DNA of 64,000 nucleotides from positions 1,874,586-1,938,585 of the forward strand of contig LJIE01000001.1 in NCBI GenBank assembly GCA_001281695.1, read 5' to 3'. Both the position numbers and the translations under genes were made by a program. Of this stretch, positions 20,792 through 37,122 are shown piece by piece; the first letter of the stretch is position 1; each line of letters starts with the position of its first letter. The notes under the pieces were generated by a model. The model was not told the DNA's origin, searched no databases, and saw nothing but the letters and a program-made list of their open reading frames with translations. The stretch comes from a bacterium 336/3. Lineage in GTDB: Bacteria > Bacteroidota > Bacteroidia > Cytophagales > Thermonemataceae.

Positions 20792-20822
20792 AAAAGCCCC
20801 AATTTATTTGGGGCTTTTTTAT
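20792..20822. terminator. terminator after rpoD
   Basis: The stem AAAGCCCCAA/TTGGGGCTTT is followed by T6. It is nearly identical to the hairpin at 22260-22286 on the far side of the SUKH gene. Confidence 0.8.
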
Positions 20823-22259: not shown

Positions 22260-22286
22260 AAAAGCCCCAATTTAATTGGGGCTTTT
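22260..22286. terminator. terminator between the SUKH gene and GT2 gene
   Basis: The AAAGCCCCAATT/AATTGGGGCTTT hairpin has a T-tract on the plus strand and an A-tract serving the minus strand, as expected for convergent genes. Confidence 0.75.
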
Positions 22287-24536: not shown

Positions 24537-26636
24537 ATGAAAAAAATAGTAATCCCTTCAATTCTTTCACTTTTGATAAGTGGTGCGATGGCTCAAAATT
24601 TACAATACCCTCAAACTGCAAAAGTAAATCAAACAGATTCATATTATGGAACGCAAGTAGCAGACCCTTATCGCTGGCTTGAGGTTTCTGATTCTACAGC
24701 AGTAAAAAACTGGGTAACAGAACAGAATAAAGTTTCTTTTGGTTATTTAGAGAAAATCCCTTTCAGAGATAAAATCCGAAAACGTTTACAGGAAGTTTGG
24801 AACTACCCAAAAATGGGTACACCTGCGAAAGTAGGGGATTATTATATCATTCAGAAAAACAATGGATTACAAAATCAATATGTTTTTTATATCAAAAAAG
24901 GAAAAGATGGTAAAGAAGAAGTACTTTTAGACCCCAATACTCTTTCTACAGAAGGTATTGTTTCTGTAGGTAATTGGAGTATTTCTGAGGACAAACGTTA
25001 TTTTGCTTATTCACTCTCCAAAGGTGGCTCAGATTGGAGTACCATTTATGTGATGGACTTAAATACTCGTCAGAATATTTCAGATAAACTTGATTGGGTG
25101 AAGTTTTCTGGAATAGCATGGTATAAAGATGGCTTTTTCTACAGTAGATATGACGCTCCTCAAAAAGGAAAAGAATTAGAAGCTAAAAATCAATATCATA
25201 AGCTTTATTATCATAAAATAGGCACACCTCAAAGCCAAGACGAATTGATTTACACAGACAGAAAAAATCCACTTCAAAACGTTTCGGCTTCAGTAAGTGA
25301 AAAAAATAATTTATTGTATGTGTTTCTACCAAAAGGAACAGCAGGAACAGCAATTTATTACAAAAAATTAGGAGGTTTTGGTGATTTACGCCCTCTGATT
25401 GATAATCAAGAAAATGAAAATAGCTTAATCACTACTCTTGATAATCATGCTTATGTGCTTACAAACCACCAAGCACCCAAGTATAGATTAGTTGCCATTC
25501 CATTAGATAATCCCAAGGTAGAAAACTGGAAAACTGTAATAAGCGAATCTGAAAATGTATTAAATGGCATTCGTTACATAGGAGGCAAATTTATTGCTAC
25601 TTATATGAAAGATGCAAGCCACAGAGTGTATGTCTTGGATAAATCTGGAAAGCAACTGAATGAAGTAAAATTGCCTGCTTTGGGTACAGTAGGTGGTTTT
25701 GGAGGTAGAGAAGAGGATACAGAGACATACTATGCTTTTAATTCTTTTGTTTCTGGGGGAAATATTTATGAATATGACTTGAATACCAATCAATCTAAAC
25801 TATACTTTCAGCCTGCTGTAAAATTTAATGCCAGCGATTACGAAACCAAAGAAGTGTTTTATAAAAGCAAAGATGGTAAACAAGTTCATATGTTTCTTAC
25901 TCACAAAAAAGGTTTGAAACGCAATGGCGATAATCCTACTTATTTATATGGTTATGGAGGTTTTAATATCAGTGTAAACCCCAGTTTTGATATTCGTATG
26001 GTACCATTTTTGGAAGCAGGTGGTGTGTATGCTGTTGCCAATTTGCGTGGAGGTAGCGAATATGGCGAAGATTGGCACAAAGATGGTATGGGACTCAAAA
26101 AACAAAATGTATTTGACGATTTTATTTCGGCTGCTGAGTATTTAATCAAAGAAAAATACACATCTTCTAAGAAAATAGCAATTTCAGGGCGTAGCAATGG
26201 TGGTTTATTAGTAGGGGCTTGCCTTACACAACGCCCAGACTTGTTTGCAGTGGCTCTACCAGGGGTAGGGGTAATGGATATGCTCCGTTTTCATAAATTT
26301 ACAATCGGATGGGCTTGGGTGCCAGAATATGGTTCTTCAGAGCGTTCTAAAGAAGATTTTGAGAATTTACTTAAATTCTCTCCACTTCATAGTATCAAAC
26401 CTGCCAATTACCCTGCAACGCTGGTTTATACAGCAGACCACGATGACAGGGTGGTACCAGCACATTCTTATAAGTTTATTTCTAATCTGCAAGCCAACCA
26501 AAAAGGCACAGCCCCTACACTCATACGCATAGATGTGGATGCAGGACATGGTGCTGGAAAACCCATTGCCAAACAAATAGACGAATGGGCTGATATTTGG
26601 GCTTTTACCCTCTGGAATATGGGAATTAAAAAATAA
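24537..26636 (+). CDS. exported prolyl oligopeptidase (S9A)
   Basis: The 699-aa protein has a short signal peptide (MKKIVIPSILSLLISGAMAQ), then the family start YPQTAKVNQTDSYYGTQVADPYRW (split here by the usual Y-rich loop). A seven-bladed propeller (residues ~70-420) and an alpha/beta hydrolase domain follow. Catalytic residues are Ser553 (SGRSNGG), Asp636 (DDRVVP) and His671 (AGHGAGK). It cleaves short proline-containing peptides, presumably in the periplasm. It is monocistronic. Length and triad are intact. Confidence 0.94.
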   Translation: MKKIVIPSILSLLISGAMAQNLQYPQTAKVNQTDSYYGTQVADPYRWLEVSDSTAVKNWVTEQNKVSFGYLEKIPFRDKIRKRLQEVWNYPKMGTPAKVGDYYIIQKNNGLQNQYVFYIKKGKDGKEEVLLDPNTLSTEGIVSVGNWSISEDKRYFAYSLSKGGSDWSTIYVMDLNTRQNISDKLDWVKFSGIAWYKDGFFYSRYDAPQKGKELEAKNQYHKLYYHKIGTPQSQDELIYTDRKNPLQNVSASVSEKNNLLYVFLPKGTAGTAIYYKKLGGFGDLRPLIDNQENENSLITTLDNHAYVLTNHQAPKYRLVAIPLDNPKVENWKTVISESENVLNGIRYIGGKFIATYMKDASHRVYVLDKSGKQLNEVKLPALGTVGGFGGREEDTETYYAFNSFVSGGNIYEYDLNTNQSKLYFQPAVKFNASDYETKEVFYKSKDGKQVHMFLTHKKGLKRNGDNPTYLYGYGGFNISVNPSFDIRMVPFLEAGGVYAVANLRGGSEYGEDWHKDGMGLKKQNVFDDFISAAEYLIKEKYTSSKKIAISGRSNGGLLVGACLTQRPDLFAVALPGVGVMDMLRFHKFTIGWAWVPEYGSSERSKEDFENLLKFSPLHSIKPANYPATLVYTADHDDRVVPAHSYKFISNLQANQKGTAPTLIRIDVDAGHGAGKPIAKQIDEWADIWAFTLWNMGIKK

Positions 26637-26649
26637 GATTTTATACAGC

Positions 26650-26680
26650 AAATGCCTCCAATTTGGAGGCATTTATATTT
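26650..26680 (+). terminator. terminator after prolyl oligopeptidase gene
   Basis: The 12-bp stem AAATGCCTCCAA/TTGGAGGCATTT, with loop TT shared in the palindrome, is followed by TATATTTTT. It is identical to the hairpin at 27698. Confidence 0.75.
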
Positions 26681-26691
26681 TTGTAAAAGTA
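26650..26691. repeat. left 42-bp direct repeat flanking the AbiTii gene
   Basis: It matches 27698-27739 at 41 of 42 positions. The identity extends 17 bp beyond the hairpin, through TTTTTGTAAAAGTA, which in the right copy encodes the C-terminus of the nucleoside hydrolase. Confidence 0.85.
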
Positions 26692-26752
26692 ATATGATAT
26701 GGAATTTTATTTTTACATTTAGTGTTCTATCTAGAGTGTAAATTTTAATACG

Positions 26753-27673
26753 ATGGAGTTAATCAATACTATAATAAATGAGCTTGTTGATACAAATAAA
26801 TCAATAACTTCTCCTTTCTTAAAAGCTAAAGTCTTAGCAAGTCAAATACAAAATAGTGAATTATTAAAATGGGTTAATGATGAGATACAAGGTTATGAAC
26901 AGGAAAATCTGCCTGATTATAGAGTAAAATATGGATATTTGCAGGGTGATTATATAAATGGAAATTCACATCTTAAAAATCAACCAATACTCACAGGTTT
27001 GGGTAAAGATATTGAGGAAGAAATAAAAAGAATACGGTTTACCCAAAGTCTTCAAGAATTAGAATCCATGTTAAGTAAAGAAAGTGATACTATTATTAGA
27101 AATCTATTAGTCCCACAACTAGTTAAGTTAGTAGAGCAAAGTATAAAAAGAGTACCAGAAAATAGGGCTTTTAATTTGATTCATTTAGAGGTTATTACAT
27201 CCATAACTGTTGTGAATAATATACTTTCAGTAGTTAGAAACAAACTTTTAGATTTTATGTTGAAAATAACAGAAGAGTTTGGTCAAACAGTAGAAATTAA
27301 AGATTTAAAAGAAAATAAAGAGAAAGTAAATACAATTATGAATCATACAATTATTAATAATTCAGGCGATGGTGTGGTAGTAAACACTGGAAATGATGCA
27401 AATATCAATGCTTCTATTCAAATTAATAAAGGAAGTAAAGATGAATTGATACAAAAACTAAAGGAAGCAAATGTGCCAAAATCAGATGTTCAAGAATTAG
27501 TAGAAATAATAGATAATGATGAGCCAAATCACGAGACACAAACATTGGGGACAGGAGCTAAAACATGGGTTCAAAAAATGTTTGCTAAAGCACTTGACGG
27601 TTCTTGGAGTGTGGGTACAGGTGTTGCAGGAGGTGTATTAGTTGAATTAATAAAAAAATATTATGGATGGTAA
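26753..27673 (+). CDS. AbiTii-domain protein (abortive-infection type)
   Basis: The N-terminal ~90 residues of this 306-aa protein fit the AbiTii domain: FLKAKVLASQIQNSELLKWV, NDEIQGYEQENLPDYRVKY and a nearby NQPI segment. This domain occurs in phage abortive-infection proteins, often with NTPase or membrane modules. Here the middle is helical, residues ~200-225 are Asn/Gly-rich (NNSGDGVVVNTGNDANINA), and the C-terminal ~25 residues (WSVGTGVAGGVLVELIKK) could insert in a membrane. A bactericidal membrane mechanism is only inferred. The gene is alone between convergent genes and flanked by 42-bp direct repeats. Confidence 0.75.
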   Translation: MELINTIINELVDTNKSITSPFLKAKVLASQIQNSELLKWVNDEIQGYEQENLPDYRVKYGYLQGDYINGNSHLKNQPILTGLGKDIEEEIKRIRFTQSLQELESMLSKESDTIIRNLLVPQLVKLVEQSIKRVPENRAFNLIHLEVITSITVVNNILSVVRNKLLDFMLKITEEFGQTVEIKDLKENKEKVNTIMNHTIINNSGDGVVVNTGNDANINASIQINKGSKDELIQKLKEANVPKSDVQELVEIIDNDEPNHETQTLGTGAKTWVQKMFAKALDGSWSVGTGVAGGVLVELIKKYYGW

Positions 27674-27697
27674 AGTAAAAATATAAATAACAAACAT

Positions 27698-27739
27698 AAA
27701 TGCCTCCAATTTGGAGGCATTTATGTTTTTGTAAAAGTA
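27698..27739. repeat. right 42-bp direct repeat flanking the AbiTii gene
   Basis: It covers the shared bidirectional terminator (27698-27726) plus the stop codon and last six codons of the convergent nucleoside hydrolase gene. Confidence 0.85.
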
Positions 27740-28584
27740 TCTACAAACTTTTCATGGTCATAATCTGTGATGATCCATGTTCTGGTGTTTTCTTGGAGTT
27801 TGGCTCCCCATTCTCCTTTTTCTCTGAAAATCTCCACTTCTGCCCATGTTCCAATGCTCAAATCTAAGGCACAACAAGCTGCCAGTGGGTCGTGAAGCAT
27901 TTTACCCAATGGATTTTTCCTGAGATAATACTCCATTCCTTTATAAATGAGGCTCAAAGACATGGATAAATCCTTGAATTGAGAGATGACTTGATGGAAT
28001 GTAGCATCATACACTACTCCATGACAGACATTTTTTGATACGAAATATCGAATATCAATTTTAGCAGATTCAAGCGTTTTAAATGCAGCAGGAATATCTC
28101 CATTCAAATTGAAGGTAGGGCAGGTTTTTCTGCCTTTAAATTTTTCTAATTGTTTTTCAGCAGGAACAACACCTTCACCTGCAAAACCTCCCTGAGCCAC
28201 AAGTGTGCCTAATTTAAAATCAGGGTTATCAAGAGCTTTTCCTAAGTTTTTTAGTGGAGCCCCTGTAATAAGAGTGGTATTTTCATCACAGTATTTCATC
28301 AACACTTCAAATCCTTCTTGAGCATTGTTGGAAGGCATTATTTTACCATAAGCATTTTCATGCCAGTCCGAAACACAGGTTTTAGGATGTTCAATATTAA
28401 AAGCCCCAATAGGAATGTCTTTTTGGAATATTTGGAGCGTTCTTTCAACCAAACCCACCTGATAGGCTGAACCTGGAGTAATGGTAACAGCTTTTAAATT
28501 TACATCAGGATGCCCCAACAACAATAACAACGTAATATAGTCATCAGGGTCGTTAGTTTCCATGTCGAAAATAATGTTTTTCAT
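27721..28584 (-). CDS. nucleoside hydrolase (IUNH family)
   Basis: This 287-aa enzyme is predicted to cleave the N-glycosidic bond of ribonucleosides for base salvage. The N-terminal Ca2+-binding motif reads FDMETNDPDD, a variant of DTDxGxDxDD seen in a side branch of the family, with the second Asp replaced by Glu. TPGSAYQVGL and ITGAPLKNL follow. The late metal-binding Asp is in HDPLAACCALD. Substrate specificity is unclear. The gene follows malate synthase on the same strand after 63 bp and ends inside a bidirectional terminator. Confidence 0.85.
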   Translation of the reverse strand: MKNIIFDMETNDPDDYITLLLLLGHPDVNLKAVTITPGSAYQVGLVERTLQIFQKDIPIGAFNIEHPKTCVSDWHENAYGKIMPSNNAQEGFEVLMKYCDENTTLITGAPLKNLGKALDNPDFKLGTLVAQGGFAGEGVVPAEKQLEKFKGRKTCPTFNLNGDIPAAFKTLESAKIDIRYFVSKNVCHGVVYDATFHQVISQFKDLSMSLSLIYKGMEYYLRKNPLGKMLHDPLAACCALDLSIGTWAEVEIFREKGEWGAKLQENTRTWIITDYDHEKFVDTFTKT

Positions 28585-30495: not shown

Positions 30496-33400
30496 ATGAA
30501 CAAAAACTACACACACTACAAGTGGGCTAAGTTACGAACGGCTATGCTACTTGTTTGGATTACCATGCTGGGGGCATGGAATCGAGCAGAAGCTCAGGTA
30601 TCACTGACAGCTACAGGTGGTACACCCACTGGAACATTTACTACACTTGGAGCTGCTTTTACAGCCATCAATGCAGGTACACACACAGGAACTATTGTGA
30701 TTGATATTACAGCAAACACGACAGAAACAGGATCTTGTGTACTAAATAGTTCAGGTGCAGGTTCAGCATCATACACATCAGTACTTATAAGACCCACTGT
30801 TGATGGTGTCAGCATCAGTGGACCCTCTGTTACTGGTAGAGGTCTAATAGAACTTAATGGGGCTGATAATGTAACAATTGATGGAGATAATCCAAATACC
30901 AGTGGAATAAATCGAAATCTATCTATAATTAATACAGCAGTAAATACTGTTACTTTTACTATGGGGATTAGAATTGCTGTAGCTACCACAATTGTAACAA
31001 CTGCAAATAATAATATCATAAGAAACTTAATTGTCAATGGAAGTGCATCAGGTAGAAATATAGCTGCAGCTACCTCCACAACAGCAACAGAAAATAATAC
31101 GTATGGTATTTATGTTGGTGGTGGTGCTTCAACAGTAAGTCAAACAACAGCCCCTTCAGCTATAACTTCTGCAACAACAACTGCTGGCACTGGAGCAACT
31201 TTTAATGGGTTGATAATCAGTAATAATACAGTAAATTCATGTGCCAGAGGTATTGCCATTCAAGGCTCTGCTATATCAATTTGTGATAATCTTACTGTAA
31301 CTAATAATATTGTTGGACCAGCTACTTCTGGTGGCACAACGAGTGTTTACTCTATGGGTATGACCCTACAAGGTTTTACTCAAGCTACCATTACAGGAAA
31401 TACAATAAGAAATATGGAATCCTTTTTAGGAACATCTATAAGAGGGTTAGACTTGGGCTCAATCTCAGCGAATGGTACAAATGCTCTTGTTGCCAATAAT
31501 ACTATTAATAAAATGAATTTGCAAAATACTGGTACTTTTGGTGTATATGGTATTAATATAGCTGTAGGTAACGGAATAACACTTCAAAACAATACAGTAA
31601 CAGATTTGCAAAGTAATATGACAGGTGGTGCAGCGTTTTCTACCACTTTTGGTATATTTGGAATTAGAGTAACATCTGGTCTAAATCACAAAATTTATCA
31701 TAACTCAGTGAATTTATATGGCTTAAGAGCAGGAACAGCAACTTCATCGCTCTTATCAGCAGGGCTTTGTATAGTTGGTACAGGATTAACAGGTTGTGAT
31801 GTAAGAAATAACATATTTTCCAATACAATCACTGGTGGTACAACTTCCATAGCCAATGTTAGTATTTATTTGCCTTCTGGTGGAACATCTGCCATGAATT
31901 TAACATTGAATAATAATGCTTACTACTCAGGAACTGATGCAACTACACAAGGCATAGCTCAAGTAGGAACAACTGCTGGTACAGGATTTTATTTAGCAAG
32001 TAACTTCTCTGCATCAACTACATCTCCTGCTACTAACTTGAGAGCATATACAAGCACTCTAAGTACATCTGGATTGAATGATAATGGTTCTTTTGGATTT
32101 TCTTCTGTTGTTCCCTTTGTGTCAAATACAGACTTACATATCAATACTGGATTAACACCTACAAACCTAGAATCTTCAGGTGCAGGTGTAGCTATAACTA
32201 ATGTTACTACTGACATAGATGGACAAAGTAGACCAGGACCTGCAGGTTCTGTAAATGGAGGAGCAACAGCTCCAGATATTGGAGCAGACGAATTTGATGG
32301 TGTGCCTCTTGATAATACCCCACCCGCTATTTCATATACACCTATTTTGAGTGATTGTTCAGTTGGTGCAAAAACTTTAACAGCCACCATTACAGATATA
32401 AATGGAGTGCCTACCAGTGGTGCAGGATTACCTGTTTTATATTGGAGAATCAATGCTGGAGCTTATCAGGCAGCAACAGGTGTATCTTTAGGAGGTAATC
32501 AATATCAGTTTACTTTAGGAACAGGTTCTGTATCTGGGGATGTAATTTCTTATTATATAGTTGCTCAGGATAATGCAGGAACACCAAATATTGGTTCTAA
32601 TCCTTCAGGGGGAGCATCTGGTTTTACAATAAATCCTCCAGCAGCAAGCACACCTCCTACAACTCCAAGTTCTTATACCAATTTGCCCACTTTGAGTGCA
32701 GGTACATATACTGTGGGGGTAACAGGTACTTATCCAACTCTCACAGCAGCTATCAATGCCTATAATAATTCTTGTATTGGAGGGGCAATTGTGTTTAGTT
32801 TGATAGATGCAACATACCCTTCAGAAACATTTCCTATTGTTATCAATGCTAATGCTGGAGCAAGTTCGACCAATACACTTACCATCAAACCTGCAGTAGG
32901 CATCAGCCCTACCATTACAGGTAGTAGTACAAATGCTATCATTCGTTTGAATGGAGCAGACTATGTTACAATAGATGGTAGCAATGTAGTGAGTGGAACA
33001 ACTAGAGATTTGACAATTATTAATACAAATGTAGGAACATCAAGTTTTGTGATTTGGAATGGTAGTGCAAGTGCTTCAGATGGAGCTACAAACAACACTT
33101 TTAAAAACCTAAATATTCTTGGAAATGCAGGAACTACCACTTTTGGGGGTATATTTAGTGGTAGTGGTGTAACGGCTGGTGGTACTGCTGAATCGCCCAA
33201 TAACAATGTTGTCATTCAAAATAACAGTGTAGCAAAAGCTCAATATGGTATTGCTATTGCTGGTGCTGCAACAGGAAATACAGGAAATGTTGTTACTCAA
33301 AATAGTGTGGGTTCATCTGTTGTAGCTGATAGAATAGGATTTATAGGAATGTTCTTTTCCAATAATAATGGATTGCAAGTTTCTAATAATACAATTTTTG

Positions 33401-36400
33401 ATATTATTACTACAGCAAACAATCCTATGGGAATTAACATTGTTGCCAATGTGATTAATTCAACATTTAATGCCAATATCATACGTAATATTCATTATAC
33501 AGGAACAGGTGGTTATGGTGGAAAAGGTATAAGTATCAATACTGCGAATGCTACTAGTAATCTCACAATTTCTAATAACTCCATTAGTGATATAAGAGGT
33601 GATGGTTGGAATGATTTTACCACTGATGTTGTAGTGGGTATTCGTCTATTGGGTACTACTGGTGGAGTTAATCTATACTATAATTCTGTAAATTTAGGTA
33701 GTGGTACATTTACGGGCAATACTAGTGGTACACTATCAGGAGCTTTTTATGTGGGATCAACAGTTACTAACTTGGATGTGCGTAACAATATATTTCATAC
33801 AAACCTTATTAATAGTGCAGCAGGTACAGCTAAAACATATGCTATCTACTCTGCAGCAGCTAATACAGCTTTCACAAACGTTAATTACAATGATTACTTT
33901 GTAAGTGGTACTCAAGGAGTTTTAGGATTTATAGGGAGTGACAGAGTAGATTTAACAGGAATTCAAACAGGATTTGGGCAAAACGCTAACTCTGTAAGCA
34001 TAGACCCTACATTTACATCTGCAACAAATCTGTTGCCTACGAATCCCCTTTTGGATGCAAGGGGTACACCTATTGTAGGCATTACAACTGATATTACGGG
34101 TGCAACCAGAGATGTTACTACTCCAGATGTGGGAGCTTATGAATTCAACGGCTGCCCTACTATTACAATCACTCCAGTGGCAGGAGCCCTTACAGCAGGA
34201 ACTATTGGTTCAGCTTATAGTGTAACTATCTCTCAAACAAGTTTAGTAGGTACCCCAACATGGTCAATTAGTGCTGGAGCATTACCTGGTGGGCTTTCTA
34301 TCAATGGAACAACAGGAGAAATATCAGGAACACCAACTGCAACTGGAGCATTTAATTTCACAGTTCAGGTGACAGATGGAACCTGTCCAGCAACTCAAGC
34401 CTATAGTATTGTAGTGAGTTGCCCTACAATTACTTTTGTCAATACCACAGCGAGCAATGCAACAATAGGTTCTGCTTACAGTTTAAATGCTTCTGTTACG
34501 GGTAATACAGCAACGATTACTTATTCAGTAAGTCCTGCTTTACCTGCTGGTCTTTCTTTAAATACTTCTACTGGAGCTATTACAGGAACCCCAACTGCTA
34601 TCACAGCTTCTGCTACTTATACAGTAACAGCAAGCCAAAGTAGTGGAGTGTGTACAGCAACTCAAGCTTATACTTTTGCAGTTGTTTGCCCTACGATTAC
34701 TTTAAGCCCAGTAGCAGGAGCCCTTACAGCAGGAACTATTGGTTCAGCTTATAGTGTAACTATCTCTCAAACAGGTTTAGCTGGCACCCCAACATGGTCA
34801 ATTAGTGCGGGAGCATTACCAGGTGGGCTTTCTATCAATGGAACAACAGGAGAAATATCAGGCACCCCAACTGCAACTGGAGCATTTAATTTTACAGTTC
34901 AAGTAACAGATGGAACTTGTCCTCAAACACAGGCTTATAGTATTGTAGTAAATTGTCCAACTATTACATTTACGAATACTGTTGCCCCTAATGCAACAGT
35001 GGGAGTAGCTTATAACTTTGACGCTTCAGTAACTGGTAATACAGCAACGATTACTTATTCAGTAGCACCTGCTTTACCTGCTGGATTGACTCTCAATACC
35101 TCAACAGGACAAATTACGGGAACGCCTACAGCTCAAGTAGCAGCAACTGCTTATACAGTAACAGCTTCTCAGAGTAGTGGAGTGTGTACAGCAACTCAAA
35201 TTTATACATTCTCTGTCAATTGTGCTGGTATCACCATTACACCAGTAACAGGAACGCTTACAGCAGGAACAATCGGTTCTGCTTATAGTGTTACCATTAG
35301 TCAAACAGGTTTATCTGGTACACCAGCATGGTCAATCAGTGCAGGGACATTACCTGGTGGGCTTTCTATCAATGGAACAAGTGGAGCCATTACAGGAACA
35401 CCTTCTGCAATTGGAACTTTTAATTTTACAGTTCAGGTAACAGATGGAACTTGTACAGCAAGCCAAGCTTATAGTATTGTAGTGAGTTGTCCTACCATAG
35501 TATTTGTGAACGCATCTGCAAGCAATGCGACAATAGGTTCTGCTTACAGTTTAAATGCATCTGTAACAGGTAACACGGCAACGATTACTTATTCAGTAAG
35601 CCCTGCATTACCTGCTGGATTGACTTTAGATACTTCAACAGGACAAATTACGGGAACTCCCACAACTACAACAGCTTCTGCTACTTATACAGTAACAGCT
35701 TCTCAGAGTAGTGGAGTGTGTACAGTTACTCAAAACTATACTTTTGCAGTAAATTGTCCAACGATTACTTTTGTCAATACCACAGCAAATAATGCAACAA
35801 TAGGAACAGCTTATAGTTTAGATGCATCAGTAACAGGTAATACAGCCACAATTACTTATTCTGTAGCTCCCGCTTTACCTACTGGTCTTTCTCTAAACAC
35901 CTCAACAGGTCAAATCACAGGAACACCTTCTGTACAAGTAGCAGCAACAACTTACACAGTAACAGCTTCTCAGAGTAGTGGAGTGTGTAGTGCAACTCAA
36001 GCTTATACTTTTGCTGTGAATTGTGCTGGTGTGAGTATCAGCCCTACAACTTTACCTAATGGTTTCTTGAGTACAGCCTATAGCCAAACACTTACTCAAA
36101 CAGGTTTATCAGGTACACCTGCTTGGTCTGTGAGTGTAGGTACATTACCCACAGGTTTATCTTTGAATGGTACAAGTGGAGCCATTACAGGAACACCTTC
36201 TGCTCTTGGAACTTTTAATTTTACAGTTCAGGTAACAGATGGAACTTGTTCAACCTCACAAGCTTATACAGTGGTAATTAGTTGTACAGGAGTAAGTGTG
36301 AATCCAGCGACATTGCCCAATGCAACACAGTTGGTAGCTTACAGTCAAACGCTTACCCAAACAGGTTTAACAGGAGCAGTTACATGGTCTGTAAGTGTAG

Positions 36401-37122
36401 GTACATTACCAACAGGTTTGACGTTGAATACTTCTACAGGAGTAATTTCAGGAGCACCTTCCACTCTTGGAACATTTAATTTTACAGTACAAGCTACCAA
36501 TGGAACTTGTAGTGCTACAAGAGCTTACACAGTAGTAGTTGCTGCAAGTGGACCCATCATCCAAATCTCTGTAACAGATATTGATTTTGGAGATGTATTA
36601 ATTCTTCAATCCTCAAGAAAAACGATTACTGTAAGAAATATTGGAGTAGCACCACTTTCACTATCATCTATGAGTATGCCTAATGTGGTATTCAATTATG
36701 GTTTCATAGGAACAGTTGCTATTGCTCCTAATGAAAGTAGAGAATTTGAGGTTTCATTTACTCCTATTGCGGTAGCTAGTTACAGTGGAACAGTAACAGT
36801 AAACAGCAATGCAGCAGGAGGGATTAATACCTTCACAGTAAGAGGAAATGGAGTGAATCCAACAGCCTTGAATAGCAACAAAGAAGTTGTGTTGAAAGCT
36901 TATCCTAACCCAACAGCAGATAAAGTAAACATTTCTGTTGAGAATGCTTGGATAGGTGAGTACAACATAAGTGTTAAAGATTTATTAGGAAAAGAAGTGA
37001 TGAGTCAAAAATTAAATACTTCTGAATTCCAAGTAGATTTAACAAGTTTGCCTTCAGGATTGTATTTGGTTCAGGTTTCGCATAAGAATGGAACAAAAAC
37101 TATTCAGATAGCGAAAAAGTAG
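30496..37122 (+). CDS. 2208-aa T9SS cargo with beta-helix and nine Ig-like repeats
   Basis: Residues 1-33 are a signal peptide (cleaved near AEAQ). Residues ~35-590 and ~745-1215 are parallel beta-helix-like, with Asn/Ile ladders (NNTI, NNIF) of the kind seen in polysaccharide-binding adhesins. Residues ~610-740 form a fibronectin-like spacer. Nine Ig-like repeats (residues ~1218-2015) follow, in two alternating types: GLSINGTTGEISGTPT and TASQSSGVCTATQAY. An ASPM/SPD-2/Hydin-like module (IDFGDVLILQSSRKTITVRN) and a type A sorting domain (AYPNPTADKVNI, ending LVQVSHKNG) close the protein. It is secreted and surface-attached; adhesion or matrix roles are inferred. Antisense ORFs in this gene are coding shadows. 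Confidence 0.9.
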   Translation: MNKNYTHYKWAKLRTAMLLVWITMLGAWNRAEAQVSLTATGGTPTGTFTTLGAAFTAINAGTHTGTIVIDITANTTETGSCVLNSSGAGSASYTSVLIRPTVDGVSISGPSVTGRGLIELNGADNVTIDGDNPNTSGINRNLSIINTAVNTVTFTMGIRIAVATTIVTTANNNIIRNLIVNGSASGRNIAAATSTTATENNTYGIYVGGGASTVSQTTAPSAITSATTTAGTGATFNGLIISNNTVNSCARGIAIQGSAISICDNLTVTNNIVGPATSGGTTSVYSMGMTLQGFTQATITGNTIRNMESFLGTSIRGLDLGSISANGTNALVANNTINKMNLQNTGTFGVYGINIAVGNGITLQNNTVTDLQSNMTGGAAFSTTFGIFGIRVTSGLNHKIYHNSVNLYGLRAGTATSSLLSAGLCIVGTGLTGCDVRNNIFSNTITGGTTSIANVSIYLPSGGTSAMNLTLNNNAYYSGTDATTQGIAQVGTTAGTGFYLASNFSASTTSPATNLRAYTSTLSTSGLNDNGSFGFSSVVPFVSNTDLHINTGLTPTNLESSGAGVAITNVTTDIDGQSRPGPAGSVNGGATAPDIGADEFDGVPLDNTPPAISYTPILSDCSVGAKTLTATITDINGVPTSGAGLPVLYWRINAGAYQAATGVSLGGNQYQFTLGTGSVSGDVISYYIVAQDNAGTPNIGSNPSGGASGFTINPPAASTPPTTPSSYTNLPTLSAGTYTVGVTGTYPTLTAAINAYNNSCIGGAIVFSLIDATYPSETFPIVINANAGASSTNTLTIKPAVGISPTITGSSTNAIIRLNGADYVTIDGSNVVSGTTRDLTIINTNVGTSSFVIWNGSASASDGATNNTFKNLNILGNAGTTTFGGIFSGSGVTAGGTAESPNNNVVIQNNSVAKAQYGIAIAGAATGNTGNVVTQNSVGSSVVADRIGFIGMFFSNNNGLQVSNNTIFDIITTANNPMGINIVANVINSTFNANIIRNIHYTGTGGYGGKGISINTANATSNLTISNNSISDIRGDGWNDFTTDVVVGIRLLGTTGGVNLYYNSVNLGSGTFTGNTSGTLSGAFYVGSTVTNLDVRNNIFHTNLINSAAGTAKTYAIYSAAANTAFTNVNYNDYFVSGTQGVLGFIGSDRVDLTGIQTGFGQNANSVSIDPTFTSATNLLPTNPLLDARGTPIVGITTDITGATRDVTTPDVGAYEFNGCPTITITPVAGALTAGTIGSAYSVTISQTSLVGTPTWSISAGALPGGLSINGTTGEISGTPTATGAFNFTVQVTDGTCPATQAYSIVVSCPTITFVNTTASNATIGSAYSLNASVTGNTATITYSVSPALPAGLSLNTSTGAITGTPTAITASATYTVTASQSSGVCTATQAYTFAVVCPTITLSPVAGALTAGTIGSAYSVTISQTGLAGTPTWSISAGALPGGLSINGTTGEISGTPTATGAFNFTVQVTDGTCPQTQAYSIVVNCPTITFTNTVAPNATVGVAYNFDASVTGNTATITYSVAPALPAGLTLNTSTGQITGTPTAQVAATAYTVTASQSSGVCTATQIYTFSVNCAGITITPVTGTLTAGTIGSAYSVTISQTGLSGTPAWSISAGTLPGGLSINGTSGAITGTPSAIGTFNFTVQVTDGTCTASQAYSIVVSCPTIVFVNASASNATIGSAYSLNASVTGNTATITYSVSPALPAGLTLDTSTGQITGTPTTTTASATYTVTASQSSGVCTVTQNYTFAVNCPTITFVNTTANNATIGTAYSLDASVTGNTATITYSVAPALPTGLSLNTSTGQITGTPSVQVAATTYTVTASQSSGVCSATQAYTFAVNCAGVSISPTTLPNGFLSTAYSQTLTQTGLSGTPAWSVSVGTLPTGLSLNGTSGAITGTPSALGTFNFTVQVTDGTCSTSQAYTVVISCTGVSVNPATLPNATQLVAYSQTLTQTGLTGAVTWSVSVGTLPTGLTLNTSTGVISGAPSTLGTFNFTVQATNGTCSATRAYTVVVAASGPIIQISVTDIDFGDVLILQSSRKTITVRNIGVAPLSLSSMSMPNVVFNYGFIGTVAIAPNESREFEVSFTPIAVASYSGTVTVNSNAAGGINTFTVRGNGVNPTALNSNKEVVLKAYPNPTADKVNISVENAWIGEYNISVKDLLGKEVMSQKLNTSEFQVDLTSLPSGLYLVQVSHKNGTKTIQIAKK
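34151..36540 (+). repeat. tandem ~267-bp Ig-like repeats (A/B alternating)
   Basis: Units begin near 34151, 34420, 34687, 34954, 35221, 35488, 35755, 36021 and 36282. The spacing is 260-269 bp. The order is A-B-A-B-A-B-B-A'-A', the last two being more divergent. Adjacent like units share long exact stretches, e.g. GCAACGATTACTTATTCAGT in several B units. Confidence 0.85.

Follow-up and report, generated by a model that had tools for sequence, protein, structure and literature searches.

Integron gene cassettes consist of a single gene and a hairpin site, and group IIC introns use terminators as insertion points. AbiTii, the family of PF18864, is the second protein of Lactococcus AbiT. The AbiTii domain is an alpha+beta domain that is fused with a HEPN RNase in some proteins, while the Lactococcus original is without HEPN (PMC3710099). 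CIMEs are elements lacking a recombinase that reside at the 3′ ends of protein genes, and those described with cargo measure 1.2-13 kb (PMC7563491).

Here we describe a gene for an AbiTii-domain protein located between two copies of a 42-bp direct repeat in a 64,000-nucleotide stretch of a bacterial chromosome (the window). As in CIMEs, direct repeats enclose cargo that includes no recombinase, and one of the repeats restores the 3′ end of the gene used as target (PMC7563491); the repeats are situated at the ends of the unit, and no recombination or transfer genes are found within it. In contrast to CIMEs, the AbiTii unit consists of one gene and is about 1.05 kb in size, no related full element or integrase is known for the site, and a bracket of the same type is found at two unrelated target genes. 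The combination of a single gene and a hairpin, with a terminator as the candidate insertion point, also resembles integron cassettes and group IIC introns, whereas the surroundings of the unit show neither an attC array nor an integron integrase nor an intron, and the repeat includes codons of the host gene. Like AbiTii of Lactococcus AbiT, the protein has an N-terminal AbiTii domain, which matches the entire Pfam model, but the gene here stands alone. Unlike in the HEPN-fused homologues, no second Pfam domain is matched in the C-terminal part (PMC3710099).

Results

Gene content of the bracketed unit

The AbiTii-domain protein (306 aa) is encoded at 26753-27673 on the forward strand and is composed of the AbiTii domain at residues 2-198 and a conserved C-terminal region. 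The domain was assigned by PF18864 (E 1.4e-42; 146.4 bits versus the curated cut-off of 27.6; residues 2-198) and by PADLOC (AbiTii, E 9.4e-41). Full-length homologues, including the C-terminal region, are found in this order and on enterobacterial plasmids with 27-39% identity. Related AbiTii proteins were not found in phage and viral collections, and distant homologues sit on plasmids. The protein is presumed to cause abortive infection as a single-gene system, a role in phage defense being suggested by the family only.

The left neighbor is a prolyl oligopeptidase gene (24537-26636, forward strand; PF02897 and PF00326). On the right, a nucleoside hydrolase-like gene (27721-28584, reverse strand; IU_nuc_hydro, PF01156, E 8e-15) is convergent with AbiTii, and its 3′ end is the duplicated one. 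The AbiTii gene is the sole ORF of at least 80 aa between the repeat copies, and neither a recombinase nor a transfer gene is present inside the unit. The lack of a transposase, an integrase, and a terminal inverted repeat, as stated in the first-pass annotation of this DNA, is borne out by the ORF list and the repeat comparison of the unit. The unit does not have the makeup of an insertion sequence or a transposon, since there is no transposase ORF and nothing apart from the palindromic terminator matches in inverted orientation. Farther to the right, the window encodes a surface-type protein of 2208 aa that contains internal repeats of 534 bp (30496-37122).

Two copies of the hydrolase gene end

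The repeat copies at 26650-26691 and 27698-27739 are identical at 41 of 42 positions with a spacing of 1048 bp, and re-comparison reproduced the length, match, and distance first reported for them. The hairpin stem AATGCCTCCAANTTGGAGGCATT occurs at just these two sites in the 4.71-Mb genome, even when three mismatches are allowed. The tail of the repeat, TATRTTTTTGTAAAAGTA, has exact matches at these two sites only, and two further genome sites are found at one mismatch. The right copy contains the shared bidirectional terminator and takes in 19 nt of the hydrolase reading frame, namely one base, the last five codons (TFTKT), and the stop codon. The first-pass annotation had correctly placed the terminator, the hydrolase stop, and end codons in this copy, but it counted six codons instead of five. 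It had also described the left copy as the same bases with no coding role, which holds: this copy comprises the terminator of the oligopeptidase gene and a non-coding remnant of a hydrolase 3′ end (TFTKI and a stop).

Relatives of the hydrolase were found at L033 (63% identity) and L034 (50%), along with a short fragment in G021. All of them, as well as the hydrolase in the window, have at their C-terminus the family motif F-x-x-T-F and a short variable tail (FVDTF-TKT in the window, FVKTF-LGNE in L033, FLQTF-NYI in L034, and FVQTF-AYES in the G021 fragment). Since the Thr-Phe codons in the right copy belong to this conserved C-terminus, it is the right copy that represents the native end of the hydrolase gene. 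The left copy, in which these bases have no coding function, therefore carries a dead piece of a hydrolase 3′ end. A search for degraded hydrolase sequence past the left copy gave none, and the similarity halts at the repeat edge.

In another possible origin, a tandem duplication from the hydrolase end across AbiTii was followed by loss of the second AbiTii copy. Such a course yields an identical end state, and decayed tandem duplications do occur in this genome, for example as paralogous pairs. However, the breakpoints of two separate events would have to coincide with the repeat edges, twice over when the second bracketed gene described below is taken into account, and residual homology past the repeat is absent. 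We regard this origin as improbable.

A perfect palindrome at the right copy

The sequence around the right copy should be noted. A perfect palindrome with 18-bp arms spans 27692-27728, and its six outer bases, on the side facing AbiTii, extend beyond the repeat. The palindrome folds with -25.1 and -24.8 kcal/mol (one value per strand) and takes in one base at which the left copy differs. The chance of the six outer bases, calculated post hoc, is 8e-4 to 1.2e-3. Against Rfam, the region yielded chance matches below threshold and nothing else. The extended palindrome is a complication for insertion of the AbiTii gene, since a plain target-site duplication does not predict such bases. Perfection of the palindrome at a later time by template switching would also explain them.

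The main rival to insertion is local copying of the terminator. The block of AbiTii, terminator, and hydrolase would be older, and the left copy would have arisen later, either as a local copy produced by template switching or by repair at the palindrome, or when the block joined the oligopeptidase gene. This order of events is consistent with the right copy and the adjoining bases toward AbiTii forming a single palindrome longer than insertion predicts, with synteny beside the oligopeptidase gene being broken throughout the family, and with the tendency of near terminators in this genome to resemble each other more than distant ones. By itself, however, it leaves unexplained why each of the two clean cases has one orphan gene enclosed by the copies, and we consider it conceivable but rather unlikely.

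Terminator pairs in the chromosome

The survey sample comprised 2.06 Mb of the own chromosome, taken in stretches, and 0.4 Mb of one relative. All of the 432 terminator-like hairpins in the 2.06 Mb were compared pairwise using an ungapped score. Three of the 175 pairs located 150-2500 bp apart score at least 24, while 0.01 is expected from the 91,364 pairs separated by more than 20 kb. The pair bracketing AbiTii scores 39. Among the 91,364 distant pairs, those scoring at least 28 all come from one dispersed hairpin family with three copies. The excess in score over the distant pairs indicates that the near pairs are local duplicates and not convergent terminators. A resemblance by convergence, or as one genome-wide terminator type, could be considered in view of GAAA-loop terminators elsewhere in the window that agree at 29 of 32 bases. 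However, the stem has no other copy in the genome, the match extends well beyond the stem and into codons, and distant pairs never score this high, with the exception of the one dispersed family. This explanation is effectively refuted.

Several other arrangements were observed. A dispersed hairpin, CCACGCATCAGGGAATCCCTGATTTTGCATTGGTGTAATAAAAT, is present in at least three copies (G000 C1:1211182, 1345081, and 2274701). Inverted palindromic terminators with a score of 24 (G000 C1:1174900 and 1176176) enclose a 287-aa ORF and a 71-aa ORF. A 41-nt piece from the 3′ portion of a gene for 140 aa recurs in non-coding DNA 1289 bp away, beyond two other genes (G000 C1:2645805 and 2647094). Tandem units of about 105 bp with GGAGGG/CCCTCC hairpins are located at G000 C1:1987848-1988900 (L053). 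A strong match in G006 with the sites 517 bp apart (C1:280846 and 281363, L168) reflects the duplication of a tRNA gene together with its terminator and was dismissed as ordinary.

A second bracketed gene

With minisatellite and paralogue repeats excluded from the case list, the 2.06-Mb sample contains two clean cases only, AbiTii and a bracket outside the window at a hisC-like gene, so named from its sequence. The repeat copies of the latter (G000 C1:2246381-2246425 and 2247145-2247189, L066) match at 44 of 45 nt with a spacing of 764, and they contain the last five codons (KYSKH), the stop codon, and the overlapping terminator of the hisC-like gene. The portion of the host ORF that is copied is exactly 19 nt in both cases. 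The second bracket encloses a single orphan lipoprotein gene (207 aa), which is absent from all seven other genomes of the family. The two cargo genes are low in GC, with values of 0.293 and 0.298 (percentiles 12 and 16), compared with 0.327 in the sampled genome. The search for other defense genes between duplicated terminators, suggested at first annotation, yielded one more clean bracket in the 2.06-Mb sample, with a lipoprotein gene as its cargo.

In a third pair (20792-20818 and 22260-22286 of the window, 26 of 27 positions identical), the repeats enclose a 465-aa SUKH/SMI1-type gene (PADLOC PDC-M40A), with a sigma factor gene of the RpoD type on one side and a glycosyltransferase gene on the other. 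This pair was not counted as a clean case, since its inverted score (28) exceeds the direct one (24).

Comparison with relatives and other AbiTii loci

Neither AbiTii nor the nucleoside hydrolase occurs in any of the seven other family genomes. Family members share the oligopeptidase, with 63-77% identity among the best matches, and in the six family loci examined, its neighbors and downstream sequence differ from those in the window. An empty site was sought via the oligopeptidase, hydrolase, hisC-like, RpoD-like, and glycosyltransferase genes, but synteny had broken down too far, or the relatives were too remote, for such a site to show. None of the relatives examined carries the neighbors of the AbiTii unit together.

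Twelve AbiTii loci of the order have no comparable flanking repeat; the best one is 20 nt long with a score of 17, versus 39 here. Mobility linked to AbiTii was rejected, as these 12 loci are unbracketed and the phage and viral collections gave no related AbiTii. Because these 12 AbiTii loci are unbracketed while an unrelated lipoprotein gene is bracketed, bracketing is not a property of AbiTii. The phenomenon concerns gene addition at gene 3′ ends rather than AbiTii. The genome has 10 matches to PF00589, and the repeat search around two sampled integrase loci (1617 kb and 1726 kb) found no att pair of the AbiTii-repeat kind.

Discussion

We tentatively favor, with a probability of roughly 0.45, the insertion of an approximately 1-kb piece holding AbiTii alone at the hydrolase 3′ end with target-site duplication, the unit being a CIME-like decayed element. 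The first-pass annotation had already proposed an insertion of about 1048 bp with duplication of the site. The native right copy, the left remnant, the lack of a recombinase, and the absence of AbiTii from relatives stand in its favor, but plain duplication does not predict the palindrome. Insertion is further suggested by the sharp repeat edges without further similarity into the hydrolase, by the same anatomy in the second, unrelated case at the hisC-like gene, and by the two cargo genes being both low in GC and missing from the seven other family genomes. It is weakened by the palindrome extension, by the number of clean cases (two only), by the lack of an empty site in the relatives examined, and by the failure to find an integrase with this site, including around the two sampled integrase loci.

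In the proposed mechanism, DNA of about 1 kb carrying AbiTii alone would enter at the hydrolase 3′ end, and the target site, consisting of the last five codons, the stop codon, and the terminator hairpin, would end up at both edges of the insert. The hydrolase would keep an intact end, and both flanking genes would keep a terminator. The join would most likely be made by recombination at a 3′-end attachment-like site. An integrase acting in trans might catalyze it, leaving a decayed element with cargo only, or a small circle sharing the site might be integrated by a single crossover. From the arrangement of the locus we infer the insertion event, its direction, and the enzyme, as we do the defense role from the protein family. 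It is doubtful, though conceivable, that a process in this lineage adds genes of foreign origin one at a time to gene 3′ ends and copies about 45 bp of gene end and terminator to the far side, with no mobility gene inside.

The AbiTii bracket, which may be the scar of a single-gene insertion, derives its value from the second case and from a signature that can be searched for. If the insertion is true, the scar would leave both neighbors expressed and terminated. The locus bears on how single defense genes enter chromosomes without a visible mobile element, and if duplicated gene ends and terminators mark such additions, they would provide a simple signature searchable in any genome.
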